This document shows, one piece after another, positions 21,250-46,683 of a DNA stretch of 64,000 nucleotides. How positions within the stretch are numbered: the first letter of the stretch is position 1; every line of letters begins with the position of its first letter. The position numbers were made by a program, and so were the translations under genes. A model generated the notes under the pieces. It searched no databases, was not told the DNA's origin, and saw nothing but the letters and a program-made list of their open reading frames with translations. Origin of the DNA: Fasciolopsis buskii (Eukaryota; Platyhelminthes; Trematoda; Plagiorchiida; Fasciolidae); assembly GCA_008360955.1 (NCBI GenBank), contig LUCM01002323.1, positions 1 to 64,000 of the forward strand. The letters run 5' to 3'.

Positions 21250-24200
21250 AGCCGCGGAGAAGCGGTAAACAAAAATCGATCACAGGGCTGCTGCGCCCAA
21301 AATTTGTTCACTCATCCGGATACTACTTACAATTGATATCTATTCTCGTGGCATTGTGCCCTCGTTGCTAGGCTTGGTTCAGCCTAACTGACAAACGATT
21401 GTGAACAAATCACACTTGTTCTCCTTCTGTCGAGTCTTCAACCAACACGTCCCGTACACACGGCTTGCGCTACAAATTAGATAGTGGTCCGATATACGAA
21501 TTGGGATTGTACAAGTATAAGGATGTTTGGACAAGAGAGTACAACGGAACGTCCCGTGCACACGGTTGCCGTACAAGATTAGATGTGGTCCGATATACGA
21601 ATTGGGATTGTTACAAGTATAAGGATGTTTGGACAAGAGAGTACCGGTTTTTCGCGCGGGTGACGAGCGCGAATAACCGCGAAACCGGTCGTTGTGTGGT
21701 TGCGGCCAACATTTGTTCACTCATCCGGATACTACTTACAATTGATATCTATTCTCGTGGCATTGTGCCCTCGTTGCTAGGCTTGGTTCAGCCTAACTGA
21801 CAAACGATTGTGAACAAATCACACTTGTTCTCCTTCGTGTCGAGTCTTAACGAACACGTCCCGTGCACACGGCTTGCGCTAAAATTAGATAGTGGTCGAT
21901 ATACGAATTGGGATTGTACAAGTATATAAGGATGTTTGGACAGAGAGTACCGGTTTTTTCGCGCATGGTGAACGAGCGCGAATAACCGCAAACCGGTCGT
22001 TGTGTGGTTGCGGCCAACATTTGTTACTCATCCGGATACTACTTACAATGGATATCTATTCTTCGTGGCATTGTGCCCCTCGTTGCTAGGCTTGGTTCAG
22101 CCTAACTGACGAAACGATTGTGAACAAATTCACACTTGTTCTTCCTTCTGTCGATGCTTCAACGAACACGTCCGTGCACACGGTTGCGCTACAAATTAGA
22201 TAGTTGGTCTGATATACGAATTGGATTGTTACAAGTATAAGGATGTTTGGGAACAAGAGAGTACCGGTTTTTTCGCGCAATGGGTGAGGAGCGAATAACC
22301 GCGAAACCGGTCGTTGTTGTTGGTTGCGGCACATTGTGCACTCATCCGGATACTATTATGCATTTCTATATCTCGTGCATTGTGGCCTCGTTGCTAAGGC
22401 ATTGGTCAGCCCTCACTACACATACCTGCGATTGTGAACAAATACCACTTTGTTCTCGTTCTTCTGAGTCGTCTCACTAAAGGTCCCGTGCACACGGTTT
22501 GCTACAAATTAGATAGTGGTCCGATATACGAATTGGGATTGTTACAAGTTAAGGGATGTTTTGCACAGAGAGTACCGGTTTTTCGCGCATGTGTGATCGA
22601 CGCGCGAATACCGCGGTCGTTGTGTGGTTGCGGCCCACATTTGTTCACTCATCCGGATACTACTTACAATTGATATCTATTCTGTGGATTCGTCATTGCC
22701 CTCGTTGCTATGGTTTGTACGATAGACAAACGATTGTGAACAACACCTTGTTCTCTTCTGTCGAGTCTTCAACGAACACGTCCCGTGCACACGGCTTGCG
22801 CTACAAATTAGATAGTGGTCCGATATACGAATTGGGATTGTACAAGTATAAGGATGTTTGGACAAGAGAGTACCGGTTTTTCGCGCATGGGTGACGAGCG
22901 CGAATAACCGCGAAACCGGTCGTTGTGTGGTTGCGGCCAACATTTGTTCACTCATCCGGATACTACTTACAAATTGATATCTATTCTCGTGGCATTGTGC
23001 CCTCGTTGCTAGGCTTGGTTCAGCCTAACTGACAAACGATTGTGAACAAATCACACTTGTTCTCCTTCTGTCGAGTCTTCAACGAACACGTCCCGTGCAC
23101 ACGGTTTGCGCTACAAATTAGATAGTGGTCCGTTAACGAATTGGGATTGTACAAGTATAAGGATGTTTGGACAAGAGAGTACCGGTTTTTCGCGCATGGG
23201 TGAGGAGCACGAATAACCGCGAAACCGGTCGTTGTGTGGTTGCGGCCAACATTTGTTCACTCATCCGGATACTACTTACAATTGATATCTATTCTCGTGG
23301 CATTGTGCCCTCGTTGCTAGGCTTGGTTCAGCCTAACTGACAAACGATTGTGAACAAATCACACTTGTTCTCCTTCTGTCGAGTCTTCAACGAACACGTC
23401 CCGTGCACACGGCTTGCGCTACAAATTAGATAGTGGTCCGATATACGAATTGGGATTGTACAAGTATAAGGATGTTTGGACAAGAGAGTACCGGTTTTTC
23501 GCGCATGGGTGACGAGCGCGATAACGCGAAACCGGTCGTTGTGTGGTTGCGGCCAACATTTGTTCACTCATCCGGATACTACTTACAATTGATATCTATT
23601 CTCGTGGCATTGTGCCCTCGTTGCTAGGCTTGGTTCAGCCTAACTGACAAACGATTGTGAACAAATCACACTTGTTCTCCTTCTGTCGAGTCTTCAACGA
23701 ACACGTCCCGTGCACACGGTTTGCGCTACAAATTAGATAGTGGTCCGATATACGAATTGGGATTGTACAAGTATAAGGATGTTTGGACAAGAGAGTACCG
23801 GTTTTTCGCGCATGGGTGACGAGCGCGAATAACCGCGAAACCGGTCGTTGTGTGGTTGCGGCCAACATTTGTTCACTCATCCGGATACTACTTACAATTG
23901 ATATCTATTCTCGTGGCATTGTGCCCTCGTTGCTAGGCTTGGTTCAGCCTAACTGACAAACGATTGTGAACAAATCACACTTGTTCTCCTTCTGTCGAGT
24001 CTTCAACGAACACGTCCCGTGCACACGGCTTGCGCTACAAATTAGATAGTGGTCCGATATACGAATTGGGATTGTACAAGTATAAGGGTGTTTGGACAAG
24101 AGAGTACCGGTTTTTCGCGCATGGGTGACGAGCGCGAATAACCGCGAAACCGGTCGTTGTGTGGTTGCGCGCCAACATTTGTTCACTCATCCGGATACTA

Positions 24201-25300
24201 CTTACAATTGATATCTATTCTCGTGGCATTGTGCCCTCGTTGCTAGGCTTGGTTCAGCCTAACTGACAAACGATTGTGAACAAATCACACTTGTTCTCCT
24301 TCTGTCGAGTCTTCAACGAACACGTCCCGTGACACCGGCTTGCGCTACAAATTAGATAGTGGTCCGATATACGAATTGGGATTGTACAGCTATAAGGTGT
24401 TTGGCAAGAGAGTACCGGTTTTTCGCGCATGGGTGACGAGCGCGAATAACGCAACGGTCGTTGTGTGGTTGCGGCCAACATTTGTTCAATCATCCCGGAT
24501 ACTACTTACAATTGATATCTATTCTCGTTGCATTGTCCTTCGTTGCTAGGCTTGGTTAGCCTAACTGACAAACGATTGTGAACCAAATCACACTTGTTCT
24601 CCTCTGTCGAGTCTTCAACGAACACGTCCGTGCACACGGTTTGCGCTACAAATTAGATAGTGGTCCGATATACGAATTGGGATTGTACAAGTATAAGGAT
24701 GTTTGGACAAGAGAGTACCGGTTTTTCGCGGGAGTGGGATGAACAGCGAATAACCGCGAAACCGGTCGTTGTGTGGTTGCGGCCAACATTTGTTCACTCA
24801 TCCGGATACTACTTACAATTGATATCTATTCGTGGCATTGTGCCCTCGTTGCTAGGCTTGGTTAGCCTAACTGACAAACGATTGTGAACAAATACACTTG
24901 TTTCCTTCTGTCGAGTCTTCAACGAAACAGTCCCGTGCACACGGCTTGCCGTCAAATTAGATAGTGGCCGATATACGAGATTGGGATTGTACAAGTATAA
25001 GTGGTTTGGACAAGAGAGTACCGTTTTTCGCGCATGAGGTGACGAGCGCGAATAACCGCGAAACCGGTCGTTGTGTGGTTGCTGGCGAACTTTTTCGCGC
25101 ATGGGTGACGAGCGCGAATAACCGCGAAACCGGTCGTTGTGTGGTTGCGGCCAACATTTGTTCACTCATCCGGATACTACTTACAATTGATATCTATTCT
25201 CGTGGCATTGTGCCCTCGTTGCTAGGCTTGGTTCAGCCTAACTGACAAACGATTGTGAACAAATCACACTTGTTCTCCTTCTGTCCGGTCTTCAATGAAC
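21250..25300 (+). repeat. Tandem satellite array, about 308-bp unit, hammerhead-derived
   Basis: About twelve head-to-tail units. Measured spacings between the same GGCC site are 309, 307, 309 and 310 bases in the well-kept middle (22935, 23244, 23551, 23860, 24170). The first unit carries an extra copy of about 95 bases (around 21541-21640), and a late unit repeats about 65 bases around 25030-25140. Each unit contains CCGTGCACACGG, TAGGCTTGGTTCAGCCTA and an ACCGGTTT...AAACCGGT hairpin. The last region corresponds to the hammerhead of the dispersed copy at 46401-46443, but the core reads GTGACGA instead of CTGACGA. Units at the two ends have many one-base indels; those at 22750-24300 are nearly identical. 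Short open frames within the array are by-products of the repeat. Confidence 0.95.
22860..22925 (+). ncRNA. Mutated hammerhead region, representative array copy
   Basis: This copy shows the array consensus: CGCGCATGG, then GTGACGA (core position C3 is G), stem II GCG/CGC, GAAA, the ACCGGT palindrome and the GTC cleavage triplet, then GTTGTGTGG. Stem I can pair only with several G-U pairs after a one-base shift. C3 pairs with G8 in active hammerheads, so this form should not cleave. The same region recurs in each unit, for example near 21660, 23506, 23813, 24122 and 25104. Confidence 0.6.
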
Positions 25301-25560
25301 ACTTCCTTTGGACATGGCTTTCGCTTCATTTTATTTTCTATTTCTCCTGCCAGCCCTTTTTTCACTTTCCTTGTTTTTACGCAAAATTTATTCTTTCTTT
25401 TCCAACCCTGATCCTTACTCTCTCTCCGTTTTTCTCGTGTGACATTTTCCATTAATCCTTCCGATTTTCCATTTTATTCTTTCCCTTGTTTCTTTCCTGT
25501 TTTTCCATATACTGATGATATTTCTTGCCCTATTTTTGAAATTTTCTTTTTGCCGTGTAT
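25264..25560 (+). other. Pyrimidine-rich tract at the right edge of the array
   Basis: The repeat unit decays after about 25285 into a strand dominated by T and C for nearly 300 bases (TTTCTCCTGCC, CTTTCCTTG, TTTCTTTCCTG). No open reading frame of interest. Confidence 0.6.
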
Positions 25561-30300: not shown

Positions 30301-32584
30301 ACGTCTCTGCCAGTAGCCTAAGTTCAACGCAAACTTTTCAAGGTAATCTATAGTGCCTGGCTACTTGGACCGTGTAGCAGTAGCTGCTGTATTAGTATGG
30401 CTTAACATAATTATTCTTCATGTGGAATCGCAACGCGAGAAACTGATAAGAGATGTCTTTAAGACCTCAGCTTTCTATTCCATAGTACAACTGAACCAAC
30501 TATGGTCTAATAACAGTCTATTATGCATCGTTGTAAATACACGCAAAGAATTAACTCAAAGAACATCAAAAATGTGGTATGTAAACGGGATAAGTCATCA
30601 ATAATTGCGCAAAATTCAATGATGAATCGATTGTGGTTGGACAGATCCGCAGAAAATCAAAAAGACCTATAATGCGACAGCGGGTTGTTTAAACATGTAT
30701 CAAGTAGAGATAAATAAATGAGAGGAAAATTGAATGGCTGAAATTCACGATAAATCCGGAAGAACGGATAGAGTTGCTTGTCTTGAGCATTCACATTATG
30801 ACAACCTATTGGTATCAAATCAGTGAAACTCCGTGGGAATAAATCCTAAATAGAATGCCATGGATTGCTAGGGAGAATTTGTTTAGTATAGAACACATTG
30901 ATGTGGAAACGAGTCAACTGAACTCTGCTCACCGAAATCATGTCAGTCAATGCACATGAAAACTGAGAAACATTATGCCCAGAGACTGGTGAAACAACAA
31001 TATGCCTCATAGATATTTACGGAATTAGGGGCAAAAATATTATCAGATCGGGTATTAAGATAAAATTTTGAATGTTCCTCTGTCCAGGCCCAGAAAGGCA
31101 TAGCCCGGTAAATATTAACCAGTAGGTCTACTTGGCCAAATAGAAATGCAAACGAAATGGAAATTTTGAGAACATACATTTCAAGTTAATCAGTGGTCAC
31201 CTATTGAAGATCGTGAACACCTTTTTTGAAATTAATGAATTTCTGGTTCACTTACTACTCAAAATGGCCTCACAATGTCAATTTTATTGACTTAGTGATT
31301 TGGTATGCGGCGCAAAAATTGAGGGTAATTGTCAGTGCCCTATCTTTCCATGAATTGCTTATCAAAGTTGTAGGCAAAGGAGATTTAAATCGATTTTGAA
31401 CATTTACGACGTAGTCAGTTGTCTCCGTGAGATTAGTTTATTGTCGTTCAAAAACCTTTTCAGTCGATATGTGTATCACCAACAAAAATTGTGTCGTTTT
31501 GACGTTCAAATCCCGCATGTCATCATGACGGTGACATTGTAACAACAGCACCGAATCATCATTGGTTAAATACGAAATTCTATTCAGTGTGCTCTATTTG
31601 GTGGGAACATTACCCCATGACCGTGAGGCAATCGCCCACTAGGAAGGATTCAGTTCGAGGTGGTTCCATATCAAGTAGGCTGACCATAGCATTTCACTTA
31701 CTATTATTAGGTGAATTGAATTAAACACTTTCCGAGTGAATAAAACCAAGTCGGTGAAACAAAATATCCATCCGATAATAATAGGCAATGTCTCTATTTT
31801 ATATATTATTTGCTTCAATCGAAGGGGAAACAGGAATTTAAACTGGTCTGAATGGTCACAACTTACAGCCTGTGGAATTTGAGAACTGAACGTTGAAAAC
31901 GGCTTAAGCTTGTGCGGAAAGTAGATTAATTATCACAATAGCGACACTGCTCTACCTTATTTATTTTATTAGACGCAGCGAGCAGAAATGCCCAGCCATT
32001 ATTATAGATTGTGACGGGATATGTAACCAAAATTTCGACCTTCGTTGGATAGTTTTATTTAGGGAATCTCCGCTGTTATACCGCACCATCATCCTTTCGG
32101 TGGTAATATCTGTCTTATCTGTCGGCTGACAATAGCTCAAACACCTTGAGAATTCTTAAAATGTCCAATTTTTGAATCTTACCAAATTTCTTCCTCATCT
32201 TCTGTTTTACATTCATATGTCCGATTTATCGTTTCGAGATCCATTTTCAACTAATACACCGCCATATTAATCAATACATTGAACCCATAGAAAAAAATGC
32301 TTACCCGAGGCAGGAAAAATCACTAGTTTCAGTTATGTTCACAAACATATTTTCCATTAAAGAACCCCTCCTTGCAGACAAAATATGTGACATAATTCAT
32401 GCGATCTAGATCCCAACACCGTTAGATTGTTAGCCCAATCAGCCTAAACTGTGCTGAACGCTTGCAATATAAACATATCTGCTGGGAACTTTCTGAGGTT
32501 TCTGTTGGTCGTCAAACATCAGAACCGTCTCATGACTGCTCCTTTTGAAATCTGTCGAAAGAAACCGAAAGAATAACTAAACTT
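27311..32584. other. Long AT-rich non-coding stretch
   Basis: No supported gene. At about 28941-28955 there is GTCGAAACGTTGG, a motif often seen downstream of Penelope-like or similar retroelement ORFs. No ORF remnant is attached to it, so it is noted only. Open frames are short and unremarkable. Confidence 0.4.
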
Positions 32585-33282
32585 TGCCGGGTGGTGCTCA
32601 CGGATGCGTTCAGACAAGCGCCTGGTCGTGCGGCCGATGTACATTGTCCCACAGGAACATGTGAATGAATAGATACAAAACGAGGCTGCAGAATCAGGGA
32701 TTTTGTCTTTCAACCATAATGACACTACGGGGCGGGATTTGAACAGGATACGAAGCTTGGCTGCGTAGAATGTCTTATTGATAGCACTAGTCAGTCTTCG
32801 TCGTGCTATTTCTGCTAGCGTGTCACCTTTGAATGGCAGATATATGTATACCGGCTTTCTCTCCACCGTCGCCCTCCTAGGAACTTCCTGTTCTGTCTCC
32901 AACATCTTGTCGATTAATCTAATTGGGAAACCATTTTCAGTGAATACTCTTCTGAGCGTCTGCAGTTCAGCTTCAAGAGTATCTTCTGTGCATATTCTTT
33001 TTGTCCTGGCAATTAGACATCTAATTAAGTTCATCTTCACATTAAGAGGTACAAAGCTGTGGAATTTGATGTATTGCCCATTCCATGTGGCTTTCCTGTG
33101 TACTGATCGCCGAATTGAGCCGTCTTCTTGACGACTTAGCCGTACATCTAAGAAAGCTATTTCACTGTTCAGCTTCATCTCTGTTGTGAATTTCACATTT
33201 GCTTGAGCCGAGTTGAAGATATTCAACAGTTGTTTAGTTTTCGTCGAGGGGTTGAGTACGCACCCGTGAGCACCACCCGGCA
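32585..33282 (-). mobile_element. Penelope-like element, inverted 5' segment (RT end plus GIY-YIG)
   Basis: Minus-strand frame from about 33262 to 32585. It starts just behind where the RT catalytic box would be (CVLNPSTKTKQLLNIF). It runs through IAFLDVRLSRQEDGS, HRKATWNGQYIKFHS and an NGFP motif, and reaches a GIY-YIG-type endonuclease with CSCGTMYIGRTTRRLSERIR and EHHPA. After EHHPA the reading leaves the element. Penelope-like elements combine a telomerase-related RT with this endonuclease and insert at nicked DNA. RT fingers and the catalytic palm are absent, so the copy is dead. The continuation of the protein lies on the opposite strand next door. Confidence 0.85.
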
Positions 33283-33520
33283 TGGTTGGGCACTGGAACA
33301 CTTAAGTCACTCAATAGCGCAGTGGTTTCACATCTAGCACAGACTAACCACACCGCGAATGTGATGCAAGCTTTCCGGACCCTGTATAAGGTCAGAGGTC
33401 AACAATCCAGGTTAGCAAATTATCGCCTCTTGAGCACGGCGGAAGCTGTCGCAATCCGTCTTCACAATCCTCCACTTTGTTCTCGAATAACTAAACATCG
33501 AGGGAAATTTCAATAACTTT
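33264..33520 (+). mobile_element. Penelope-like element, 3' segment in opposite orientation
   Basis: The plus-strand frame reads REHHPAWLGTGTLKSLNSAV, then VSHLAQTNH, AFRTLYKVRG and LLSTAEAVAIRLHNPPLCSR, ending at a stop near 33516. This is the C-terminus that normally follows the GIY-YIG domain. The 19-base sequence CCGTGAGCACCACCCGGCA at 33264-33282 is repeated in reverse complement at 32585-32603, the end of the inverted segment. The two segments are therefore neighbouring parts of one element placed tail to head. Confidence 0.85.
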
Positions 33521-34849
33521 TTCTATCACTGGTGCCATATCCGTGCGTGGTTATAACTATAAATCAGTTGCATAATTATTTCCAGGTACATGCAAAAGTT
33601 GCGTATGCTTGACTTGAACAATGGCCATTATCACAAATGCTGTGAGCGATGCAGGTCACAGATAACGGAAGAACCTACGTGTGTCGATGTGGGACTGAAC
33701 TCATCGATTCACTCTCTGGGACTGGGTGAGCAACGGACAACCAAATCCACAGTAATCAGCTTAGTTAGGTGGTTTATTTATGTCTGTCGCTTTTTCCTTT
33801 TACAAGGATTTAGGGTGACTGGAAAATAACCCTTTTACGATTGTACAAAATTCATATTCAAAGCAGCTGGAACATTTTGCGTTAGGCATTTTTCAGTCTC
33901 AAGTTGATTATATGTGGAAGTTGATCTTAGGCCTACGGAGGCTCTCTCTACATATAGGCGCGGTTTATCAAACAAAAGCTAGATTTTTCATTCTTCATTC
34001 TTGGAGAAATAAGACGGTTTATCTGGAGCGGAACACATAAAAGAACTTCTTGAACGATTCTCAAGACAGTCCATCTTGTTGATGTCAGTAGCAGAAATCT
34101 GCATCACGTTGACCAATTCAATTAGCTGATTGCTGCTAATTACACAAAAAAATTAAAAAATATTCCAGTTGAATTTCACGTGGACTGTGTATGGGCCGCA
34201 CATCGGCAACTCTACATTGTAGTTAACCAAAGCTCCACGTGGACATTCCGATCTTCGGCATTACCTGCTGCCGACACTGTGTATACCAAATTTCATAACT
34301 TGCTGTAGGTCATACAAAGAGCTGTGAAATTTTGACCACTGATACTTCCACCAAAGGACAAAAAATGAAGCGGCATGTTTGTACTTTAGATTTCGCCGTT
34401 TGTCAACACAGTACGAAACAAACCGGATGAATTTCCTCTTTACTCAAAACGCATCGTCTGGACTGGTTCAGCCAAATCCTCCTCAGACCTGCACACGTGC
34501 ATTTCTGTCTTTGTTGCCGATCCGCTGAGTCAAACATGCGATTGCGGTACGCGCTCGGGTACACTGCACATGATAGACAATGACAGATGTTCATGAATTA
34601 AATTCAGCTTAACTCAAAGGTGTTTGTATTAGGTGGATGGATTCCCACCAGGAAACCCATTAGCAGACATGTAAACTGTCAGCAAATAAGATCAAAACAT
34701 ACGCATTTTTTCCTGAACTGGCTACCCTCTGGATTCCACTCTCAATAAGCAAACCGCAGTTCCTCCGGTCAATCTTGAATTCGGAAAGCACCAAGCTCGT
34801 ACTTCGCTCTCACTAGAGCTCATCACTGGTGCCCAACCAACTTATTCGT
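33521..34849. other. Non-coding sequence, possible element 3' UTR then unassigned
   Basis: The first part may be the 3' UTR of the Penelope-like element. A small open frame with CCERCR (about 33590-33829) follows a TTTCCAG acceptor-like site but matches nothing I recognise. Confidence 0.35.
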
Positions 34850-34920
34850 ACCCACGGCTTGAACCCGGGTACTTTCCCGTGCGAGGTGTGGGTATATTAT
34901 CACTATGGTGCCCACCTCCC
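34850..34920 (-). repeat. tRNA-derived SINE remnant
   Basis: On the minus strand GCACCATAGTGATAATA is followed about 30 bases later by CCCGGGTTCAAGCCG, a good box B. Acceptor-stem pairing is not evident. Confidence 0.5.
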
Positions 34921-35409
34921 ATGAGCTGATTCGAATTGCTGGTGTTGTTTATTTTAAGTGCCGTTTTCGATAGCAGTGAACAATGCTCGACAGCTTTAAT
35001 GAGAAACACGGTTATCGCCCGTTGACTCCGGTGGAATTACTCCCGCCAGGTCAGTTGCACTTTGTGGAATAGGTTCTTATTAAGACAATCTTTTGCGATC
35101 ACTATGCACTAGTGAAGTGTTGGGAAGGTACGTTGCACATTGGGGAACGATTGAATATTTTACATGCGATGGTTTGGAAGAATCAACCTGAATTGATCTA
35201 TGATGGCGGAATGGATTAATCTCGGTAAAAGGTTACGGCTTGGTTATTATGAAACGAGCTTTTTCTATAGTCAACCAAAGGCTATAACTTGATTTCAACA
35301 AAATCTTGATACCCCGCGCAAAATGATGGCACTCTATCCTTAGACCCACAAAAATTATCAGGAAATGACAAAGAATGAGATGCATAAAAAAGAATGGCTC
35401 CGGTAATAC
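34921..35409. other. Non-coding sequence, nothing recognised
   Basis: AT-rich. No feature supported. Confidence 0.35.
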
Positions 35410-45822: not shown

Positions 45823-45846
45823 TATATATATATATATATATATATA
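45823..45846. repeat. (TA)n microsatellite, left of gap
   Basis: Pure TA repeat running into the run of N. Confidence 0.95.
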
Positions 45847-46343
45847 NNNNNNNNNNNNNNNNNNNNNNNNNNNNNNNNNNNNNNNNNNNNNNNNNNNNNN
45901 NNNNNNNNNNNNNNNNNNNNNNNNNNNNNNNNNNNNNNNNNNNNNNNNNNNNNNNNNNNNNNNNNNNNNNNNNNNNNNNNNNNNNNNNNNNNNNNNNNNN
46001 NNNNNNNNNNNNNNNNNNNNNNNNNNNNNNNNNNNNNNNNNNNNNNNNNNNNNNNNNNNNNNNNNNNNNNNNNNNNNNNNNNNNNNNNNNNNNNNNNNNN
46101 NNNNNNNNNNNNNNNNNNNNNNNNNNNNNNNNNNNNNNNNNNNNNNNNNNNNNNNNNNNNNNNNNNNNNNNNNNNNNNNNNNNNNNNNNNNNNNNNNNNN
46201 NNNNNNNNNNNNNNNNNNNNNNNNNNNNNNNNNNNNNNNNNNNNNNNNNNNNNNNNNNNNNNNNNNNNNNNNNNNNNNNNNNNNNNNNNNNNNNNNNNNN
46301 NNNNNNNNNNNNNNNNNNNNNNNNNNNNNNNNNNNNNNNNNNN
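45847..46343. other. Assembly gap
   Basis: 497 undetermined bases flanked on both sides by (TA)n. Any open frame crossing it is an artefact. Confidence 1.
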
Positions 46344-46356
46344 ATATATATATATA
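46344..46356. repeat. (TA)n microsatellite, right of gap
   Basis: TA repeat between the gap and the dispersed repeat monomer. Its true length is unknown. Confidence 0.9.
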
Positions 46357-46650
46357 AGCAGGAAGTAGTATCTGGATGCGTAAACAAAATTAGCCCGGGA
46401 GCACACGACCGGTTTCGCGGTTATTGTCGCTCGTCAGGTATGCGTACCCGATGCTCTCTTGTCTAAACATCCACATACTTGTACACTCCGAATTGATTGA
46501 TATTTCTCACCAGAATCGAATCTGTAGCAACAGGAGTGTGCATGGAAGCTCTTCGTCGAAGAGTCCACAGAAGAATCACAACTGTGATTCGTTGATAATT
46601 CTTTGTCAGTTGGGCTGAGCCAACCTTAGGAACGAGGGTAGAATGCCCCA

Positions 46651-46652
<2 letters not shown>
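46357..46652 (-). repeat. Dispersed monomer of the 308-bp repeat, hammerhead-bearing
   Basis: Read on the minus strand this 296-base copy aligns from end to end with one unit of the 21250-25300 array. Shared blocks include CCTCGTT, CAACTGACAAA, GTACAAGTAT, GATGTTT, ACAAGAGAG, AATAACCGCGAAACCGGTCG and GATACTACTT. It is much diverged from the array units. Its ends abut (TA)n on both sides. In array units the corresponding junction is a short AT-rich bridge, ATTGATATCTATT. This suggests that the monomer ends lie there and that the array formed by joining monomers head to tail. Confidence 0.85.
46401..46443 (-). ncRNA. Hammerhead ribozyme, type I, putatively intact core
   Basis: On the minus strand the order is GCATAC (stem I, 5' side), CTGACGA (conserved core), GCG-loop-CGC (stem II), GAAA, ACCGGT as a self-complementary short stem III containing the GTC triplet, then GTGTGC (stem I, 3' side). 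GCATAC and GTGTGC pair over 6 bp with one G-U. Beyond a 3-by-1 internal loop, CGGG and CCCG pair to make an outer stem I. The internal loop in stem I opposite loop II is what natural hammerheads use for their tertiary contact. All core residues are canonical; cleavage is expected after the C of GTC. The very short palindromic stem III resembles hammerheads that act best as dimers. Activity is not shown. Confidence 0.75.

Positions 46653-46683
<31 letters not shown>
46653..46683. repeat. (TA)n microsatellite
   Basis: About 31 bases of TA repeat directly after the monomer. Confidence 0.95.

Follow-up and report, generated by a model that had tools for sequence, protein, structure and literature searches.

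A hammerhead-bearing repeat unit between TA tracts

The window analysed here, a stretch of 64,000 nucleotides of the Fasciolopsis buskii contig LUCM01002323.1, contains near 46.4 kb one unit of a dispersed, tandemly repeated element whose RNA sense lies on the minus strand and which is flanked by (TA)n tracts on both sides. The features relevant to the following analysis are:

46357–46652, minus strand: one retrozyme unit (296-bp core), RNA sense on this strand
46653–46683: (AT)15.5 tract on the 5′ side of the element
45824–46343: (TA)n running into an assembly gap on the 3′ side of the element (497 N at 45847–46343)
46344–46357, minus strand: putative first RNA 3′ end site, where the internal (UA)n merges with (TA)n of the target; it meets the N gap in this copy
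46496–46520, minus strand: putative second RNA 3′ end zone (core 133–157), mainly GGUGAGAAAUAU; this copy does not end there
46384–46455, minus strand: complete stretch matched by Rfam RF02275 (HH9-like), which takes in the internal loop and outer stem I
46401–46443, minus strand: hammerhead core (inner stem I, CUGACGA, stem II, GAAA, loopless stem III, GUC)
32519–33298, minus strand: piece of a second Penelope-like element, 61% identical to its best hit, given for context only
21273–25339, plus strand: related tandem array with a period of 309; 12 of 12 matched hammerhead-like cores lack C at position 3

Each unit is composed of the 296-bp core, with a GC content of 47.3%, and an internal TA tract, which results in a period of 307 bp in the commonest arrays and of up to 317 bp elsewhere. 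Searching the assembly with a 306-bp query returned at least 143 matches (best 40 of 2066 candidates scored), many of them 99–100% identical and arranged in tandem. These matches and the (AT)15.5 tract on the 5′ side bear out the original prediction, which had described a dispersed repeat bounded by (TA)n. Up to 8 aligned segments were found per fetched arm, with a single segment in 59 of 120 arms, and as (TA)n is present on both sides of the 497-N gap, further units could hide inside it. Folded as a circle, one unit (from locus L012) reached −98.6 kcal/mol compared with −72.5 ± 5.5 kcal/mol for 100 shuffled sequences, with the UA tract remaining unpaired.

The available text of PMC7229834 applies the name non-LTR retrozymes to tandem repeats of about 150–450 bp that carry type I hammerheads. 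Judged by its sequence, the element fits this published definition of the metazoan class in size, tandem units, type I hammerhead and a GC content below 50%, and no LTR was noticed around the retrozyme arrays in the fetched stretches. The family, which had not been recognised at the outset, belongs to a class that is already known, and the initial pointer to metazoan retrozymes and Penelope-like elements is supported. We conclude that the repeat is a non-LTR retrozyme of about 307 bp and of a known kind, and that its insertion signature is what is new. A 307-bp unit is too short for a reverse transcriptase or a GIY-YIG endonuclease, and the retrozyme is at most a dependent element and not itself Penelope-like. 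For two mobile-element proteins encoded in the window, most named relatives come from flatworms, which points to a flatworm as the probable host. An assignment to the LTR retrozymes of plants does not agree with the type I layout or with the lack of any LTR noticed around the arrays, as the plant class combines LTRs with type III hammerheads.

Compared by description with the metazoan non-LTR retrozymes of the coral Acropora, the mussel Mytilus and axolotl (PMC7229834, available text), the element shares the type I layout, tandem units of 150–450 bp, a GC content below 50%, no LTR seen, a stable predicted circular fold and coexistence with Penelope-like elements, whereas (TA)n insertion, two 3′ end zones and head-to-head pairs are not described in that text.

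Just before the 3′ end, a motif like ATACTACT was noticed by eye (window 46357–46380, minus strand; core about 273–296). It recurs in this position in several retrozyme families with different targets and may act as a recognition signal for the reverse transcriptase. Weak A-box-like TGGCTCAGCCC and B-box-like GATTCGATTCT strings are located at window 46512–46622 on the minus strand (core 31–41 and 131–141) and could hint at an RNA polymerase III promoter; compared by eye with the B-box consensus, GATTCGATTCT carries two mismatches, and the strings could be due to chance.

The hammerhead motif and its copies

All parts of a hammerhead in type I layout were located, in order, on the minus strand at 46401–46443, which confirms the original prediction on this point, and the additionally claimed internal loop and outer stem I are present as well:

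46450–46447 with 46399–46396, minus strand: outer stem I (CGGG with CCCG), with a TAC/T internal loop
46443–46438, minus strand: inner stem I, 5′ side, GCATAC
46437–46431, minus strand: CTGACGA
46430–46417, minus strand: stem II, GCGACAATAACCGC (GCG/CGC, 3 bp, then an A·C mismatch)
46416–46413, minus strand: GAAA
46412–46409, minus strand: CCGG
46408–46407, minus strand: TC
46406–46401, minus strand: stem I, 3′ side, GTGTGC
46408–46413, minus strand: palindrome ACCGGU, read as a loopless stem III
between 46407 and 46406, minus strand: predicted self-cleavage point after GUC, based on the motif

The conserved hammerhead features are all found: stems I and II, CUGANGA, GAAA, and UH preceding the cleavage point. 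A pattern describing the core, CTGANGAGN{4,24}CGAAACCGGTC, gave 1713 exact matches in the 703-Mb assembly, 890 in forward and 823 in reverse orientation, compared with 0 + 0 matches for the same pattern read backwards, and a scan of viral contigs with the core pattern gave 5 matches. The covariance-model search that had been proposed as a check yielded 0 Rfam matches at the gathering threshold across the 64-kb window; by E-value, the best match was RF02275 Hammerhead_HH9 at 46384–46455 on the minus strand, with an E-value of 3.5e-4 for the 64-kb window and 32.2 bits, which falls short of the gathering score of 52, a score cut-off and not a structural feature. The refuting condition named in the original prediction, the lack of a significant covariance-model hit, thus applies when the curated threshold is used and does not apply when the E-value is used. 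As nothing from Rfam reached the gathering threshold, the hammerhead call is based on motif, E-value and copy number, and the motif is confirmed as real at the sequence level. MicroRNA-like Rfam matches in TA tracts remained under their own gathering scores and were taken as low-complexity chance.

Stem pairing and covariation were evaluated across 26 of 41 distinct hammerhead copies, after exclusion of 6 copies of the 309-bp array and 9 copies with indels or a cut stem I. In this set 87.9% of the cells pair, compared with 55.8% in the best slid version, the copies having mostly been chosen by a pattern that itself contains the CCGG of stem III. Covariation did not exceed that of shuffles, with a both-sided change in one pair only, the copies being too similar to one another (94% mean column identity). 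Stem pairing is kept among the copies, yet compensatory changes provide no proof of it. As a single strand, the 72-nt Rfam segment folds with mild stability (z −1.74; 12 of 200 shuffles were equally good), and the minimum-energy fold of a single copy is a different hairpin and not the hammerhead.

The description of the hammerhead as complete holds for the listed parts and overstates stem III, as the palindrome ACCGGU lacks any loop and a closed single-copy stem III is absent. A lone copy should consequently not close this stem, and pairing would require a second copy, either in tandem or in trans; the six bases of ACCGGU offer a predicted duplex of −9.7 kcal/mol for this. Ribozyme activity probably needs dimers. 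A weak or missing stem III together with dimer action is reported for newt-type hammerheads, including those of newt and axolotl, in the available text of PMC7229834. The satellite hammerhead HHR_Amex1 described there likewise combines a palindrome with a very weak helix III and is reported to act best as a dimer, whereas the present motif differs in its host, its 307-bp unit and its ACCGGU palindrome without a loop. Minimal Penelope-like hammerheads (Cervera and de la Pena 2014; Lunse 2017; via the accessible portion of PMC7761336) also have little or no helix III, and dimer cleavage has been proposed for them. Here, in contrast, an outer stem I with an internal loop is present within a non-coding unit, and Rfam finds no hammerhead in the Penelope-like copies examined. 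PMC7229834 reports efficient cleavage for most hammerheads of invertebrate retrozymes, from which the present motif is set apart by its loopless stem III.

Insertion ends, TA targets and inverted pairs

Copy ends were mapped in 86 loci. For the scoring of 3′ ends, 73 loci contributed 97 arms whose 3′ flank is assembled, while ends at N runs, at contig or locus edges, or in arms with fewer than 80 aligned bases were left unscored. Before counting, L059, L063 and L068 (same places as others) and L076 (a near-duplicate of L075) were removed, and L072, L074, L085, L087 and L093, which represent another retrozyme family, were excluded from the end counts. The near-identical set (L009–L047) consists of the 40 scored candidates of one search and is for this reason biased to young copies; the contig-order set (L049–L098) comprises the first listed of the 1713 pattern matches and favours copies in which the core pattern is intact. 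As neither arms nor loci are fully independent of one another, p-values calculated from these counts serve as rough guides only.

The 3′ ends are concentrated in few positions: 69 of the 97 arms end at core 289–296, 14 at 148–157 and 3 at 134–138, with 11 elsewhere, and the second zone (17 of 97 arms) sits 140–160 nt upstream of the first site. Taken by itself, the contig-order sample has 39 of its 56 arms ending at 289–296 and 14 at 133–157, with 49 beside TA. By the score used, 80 of the 97 arms have a TA-rich neighbour (64 of 69 at the first site and 16 of 17 in the second zone), compared with 204 of 63405 window positions. As the element's own TA tract (8–17 nt, mostly 11) is located at the first site, its TA score arises there partly by construction, and the length of the TA run was used as a correction. 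An uninterrupted TA run of at least 16 nt was found in 49 of 69 first-site arms, 9 of 17 second-zone arms (58 of 86 for the two preferred zones together) and 0 of 11 other arms, compared with 9 of 9055 window positions. The 97 5′ ends scatter across the unit, with 14 at its first two bases; 27 of 97 arms have a TA run of at least 16 nt in the 5′ flank, and many others adjoin an inverted arm instead. Any target site duplication would be hidden by insertion inside (TA)n.

Inverted pairs (n = 21) are head-to-head in 19 cases and tail-to-tail in 2. Ten of the head-to-head pairs combine a 289–296 end with a 152–157 end and 3 a 289–296 end with a 134–138 end, while 2 show two first-site ends, 3 fit neither arrangement, and in 1 an arm is cut by the locus edge (L067, first). 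Palindromic outer flanks were seen in 0 of the 19 head-to-head pairs (one of them without a left flank to test), which makes hairpin artefacts of sequencing unlikely. The insertions thus display the Penelope-type traits of head-to-head arms, two alternative 3′ ends, 5′ truncation and an AT-rich target, with 11 of 97 ends and 2 of 21 pairs as misfits. The tandem arrays, the two preferred 3′ ends and the head-to-head pairs were absent from the original prediction, as were the Penelope-like element with the same signature and the 309-bp array described below.

With respect to the form of the template, the TA junctions were all identical in 21 of the 22 arrays with at least two readable junctions. 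Junctions matched in 138 of 139 pairs from the same array and in 2292 of 3264 pairs between arrays, with five types among the first junctions. Uniform junctions within arrays would be explained most simply if one unit had been copied per array, as from a circle; this uniformity carries limited information, as one junction type is also frequent between arrays. No excess of ends was seen near the hammerhead cut, where 1 of 97 3′ ends and 2 of 97 5′ ends lie, which suggests that cut linear monomers are unlikely templates and fits circles or uncut multimers.

A Penelope-like element with the same insertion signature

A Penelope-like element of the same genome (L099, contig C77) adjoins a retrozyme. 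RVT_1 (E 1.1e-6) and GIY-YIG (E 0.002) were recognised in its open pieces, each narrowly short of the Pfam cut-off; its frame is broken, and (TA)n is present at both ends. Rfam reported no hammerhead in L099, nor in the Penelope parts of L002, L004 and L053. Due to the broken frames and the lack of an Rfam hammerhead in L099, we place the putative helper at the level of the family and not of this single element.

The 137-base terminus of the L099 family (from L004) gave at least 48 matches (best 40 of 1165 candidates scored), among which 7 close inverted pairs were found, all head-to-head. Twenty terminus flanks were fetched from 15 places, with both sides covered at five places that are head-to-head pairs. 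In 5 flanks the same sequence continues beyond the terminus, as expected of internal copies; of the 15 remaining flanks, 13 border on (TA)n, two of them only partly. In the head-to-head pairs on C5351, C5004, C399 and C5558, a tail of about 40 nt is carried by one arm and absent on the other, while the pairs on C3722 and C6729 carry it on both arms. Penelope pieces were located within the fetched stretch of 16 of 86 retrozyme loci, which is a raw count. The retrozyme and the Penelope-like element of the same genome share target, head-to-head shape and two alternative 3′ ends.

Comparable insertions are described for the Penelope elements of Adineta and Anolis in the available parts of PMC3846280 and PMC11167929. 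AT-rich targets, 5′ truncation, arms inverted head-to-head, and a tail that may be present or absent, which gives two 3′ ends, are reported in PMC3846280. According to the portion of PMC11167929 at hand, the purified Penelope-like protein, which for Anolis Penelope extended both target strands in vitro, cuts both strands as well and starts inside the RNA, and insertion by the purified system did not require hammerhead cleavage. The retrozyme differs from these elements in being non-coding and only about 307 nt long.

At the C6729 pair (G000:C6729:51727-52099; L117, L118), mirror-image retrozyme sequence was observed on both sides, possibly a nested insertion or an assembly palindrome. Within the window itself, the fragment at 32519–33298 (minus strand) has 66 related proteins, most of them with PF26215, while the fragment itself yielded no Pfam hit at E 0.01.

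Proposed mechanism and alternative explanations

We consider it likely that Penelope machinery reverse-transcribes the retrozyme of about 307 nt at (TA)n from RNA circles or multimers, with both target strands priming. According to this explanation, transcripts of tandem arrays would be cut by hammerheads that pair via the palindromic stem III, and the cut RNAs would be circularised by a host ligase, a step taken from the literature on other retrozymes. The circles would be copied by a Penelope-like reverse transcriptase with its GIY-YIG endonuclease at (TA)n microsatellites, as the insertion shape suggests, and both nicked target strands would prime, one cDNA starting from the (UA)n tract (core 296) and the other often from core 133–157. 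Several rounds of the circle would yield tandem units, a stop at any point would leave ragged 5′ ends, and joining of the two cDNAs would generate a head-to-head pair. Against this explanation stand a third family that does not end at (TA)n, the 11 of 97 misfit ends, the 2 tail-to-tail and the deviating head-to-head pairs, the contribution of the element's own TA tract to the first-site score, covariation no higher than in shuffles, the dispensability of hammerhead cleavage in the purified Penelope-like system (PMC11167929), and long uncut multimers, which could yield tandem copies as well.

The latter point leads to a variant of the best explanation, in which uncut multimeric transcripts or repeated template jumps would be copied linearly by Penelope machinery and circles would have no part in insertion. 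While the dispensability of hammerhead cleavage for Penelope-like RNA insertion in vitro (PMC11167929, available part) and the location of the ends away from the cut site are in line with this variant, the uniform junctions in 21 of 22 arrays are simplest if one unit was copied per array, and RNA circles are abundant for the retrozymes of other animals in the accessible text of PMC7229834. We regard linear copying as possible and rather unlikely, its odds overlapping with those of the explanation of which it is a variant. A different source of the enzymes would be a LINE-type (non-LTR) retrotransposon that mobilises the retrozyme and produces the inverted pairs by twin priming. A LINE-like ORF with RVT_1 is indeed present in the window, 5′ truncation and a preferred 3′ end are LINE traits too, and L1 inversions by twin priming are known. 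However, the inverted pairs are head-to-head in 19 of 21 cases and use two preferred 3′ end zones, most arms of either zone adjoining (TA)n. Inspection of the listed flanks by eye revealed no poly-A or LINE tail, and insertions of the Penelope-like element in this genome agree in shape and target, which renders mobilisation by a LINE improbable.

Ordinary satellite DNA spread by unequal exchange, with a relic hammerhead and without an RNA step, would find a precedent in the array of 309-bp units with a degenerate ribozyme at 21.3–25.3 kb of the same window. The 46.4-kb family, in contrast, is spread over many contigs as short arrays that are nearly identical, lie within (TA)n and have ragged 5′ but preferred 3′ ends; these traits indicate an insertion pattern and not a local expansion, and we consider a pure satellite origin hardly credible.

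Extending the explanation by Penelope machinery, a viroid-like RNA circle with an obligate-dimer hammerhead could parasitise Penelope-like retrotransposons, with two start sites of reverse transcription priming both nicked (TA)n strands, and each event could leave a head-to-head multi-unit insertion; we see about even chances for this more specific proposal. If true, it would provide genome-wide in vivo evidence of two-strand target-primed reverse transcription from circles, and it would name the helper of an animal retrozyme. Penelope-like helpers have been proposed for animal retrozymes from coexistence and shared features (PMC7229834 and PMC7761336, as far as their text was available); here, the insertion sites themselves bear the Penelope shape, with the same target, head-to-head arms and two alternative 3′ ends. 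Among the papers listed in our literature search, with subscription papers mostly beyond reach, there was no animal-retrozyme paper with head-to-head insertion or (TA)n targeting: the term 'head-to-head' was absent from the listed 'retrozyme' papers, and the one listed retrozyme paper with 'microsatellite' concerned a plant. If confirmed, the retrozyme would offer a compact test system for two-strand priming from an RNA circle, with about 307 nt, a defined (TA)n target and many near-identical copies.

Related families and further hammerhead-like sequences

The related tandem array at 21273–25339 on the plus strand matches the retrozyme with about 70–75% identity over the unit in most longer matches. 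All 12 of its cores found by a relaxed pattern have C3 replaced, by G in 11 cases and by A in 1, and a thirteenth, more damaged core near 22.6 kb remained unmatched by this pattern. In a Penelope hammerhead, the change of C3 to G abolished cleavage (PMC11167929, in the text available). The array is perhaps a retrozyme turned satellite, and it suggests how a ribozyme repeat may persist as satellite DNA after decay of the ribozyme.

In the third family (L072, L074, L085, L087 and L093), the hammerhead core is kept, the 3′ side is formed by ATACTACTGAGAA or a similar sequence, and no (TA)n end is present, which suggests that target choice differs between families. Stem II comprises 4 bp (GCGG/CCGC) in L072, L074 and L093, and inverted arms were found in several loci.

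Flatworm repeats with type I hammerheads, some of which cleave in vitro, are likewise represented by the SM-alpha SINE-like elements and W-elements of Schistosoma (PMC8490949), which we compared by description and for which the available text does not mention (TA)n insertion. ARAGORN detected no tRNA in the window. At 34771–34960 on the minus strand, downstream of a tRNA-like B-box GGTTCAAGCC seen by eye, a weak HH9 match (21.8 bits, E 0.76) was observed in which TGATGAG is kept and preceded by G, and this stretch is possibly an SM-alpha-like SINE whose hammerhead has degenerated.
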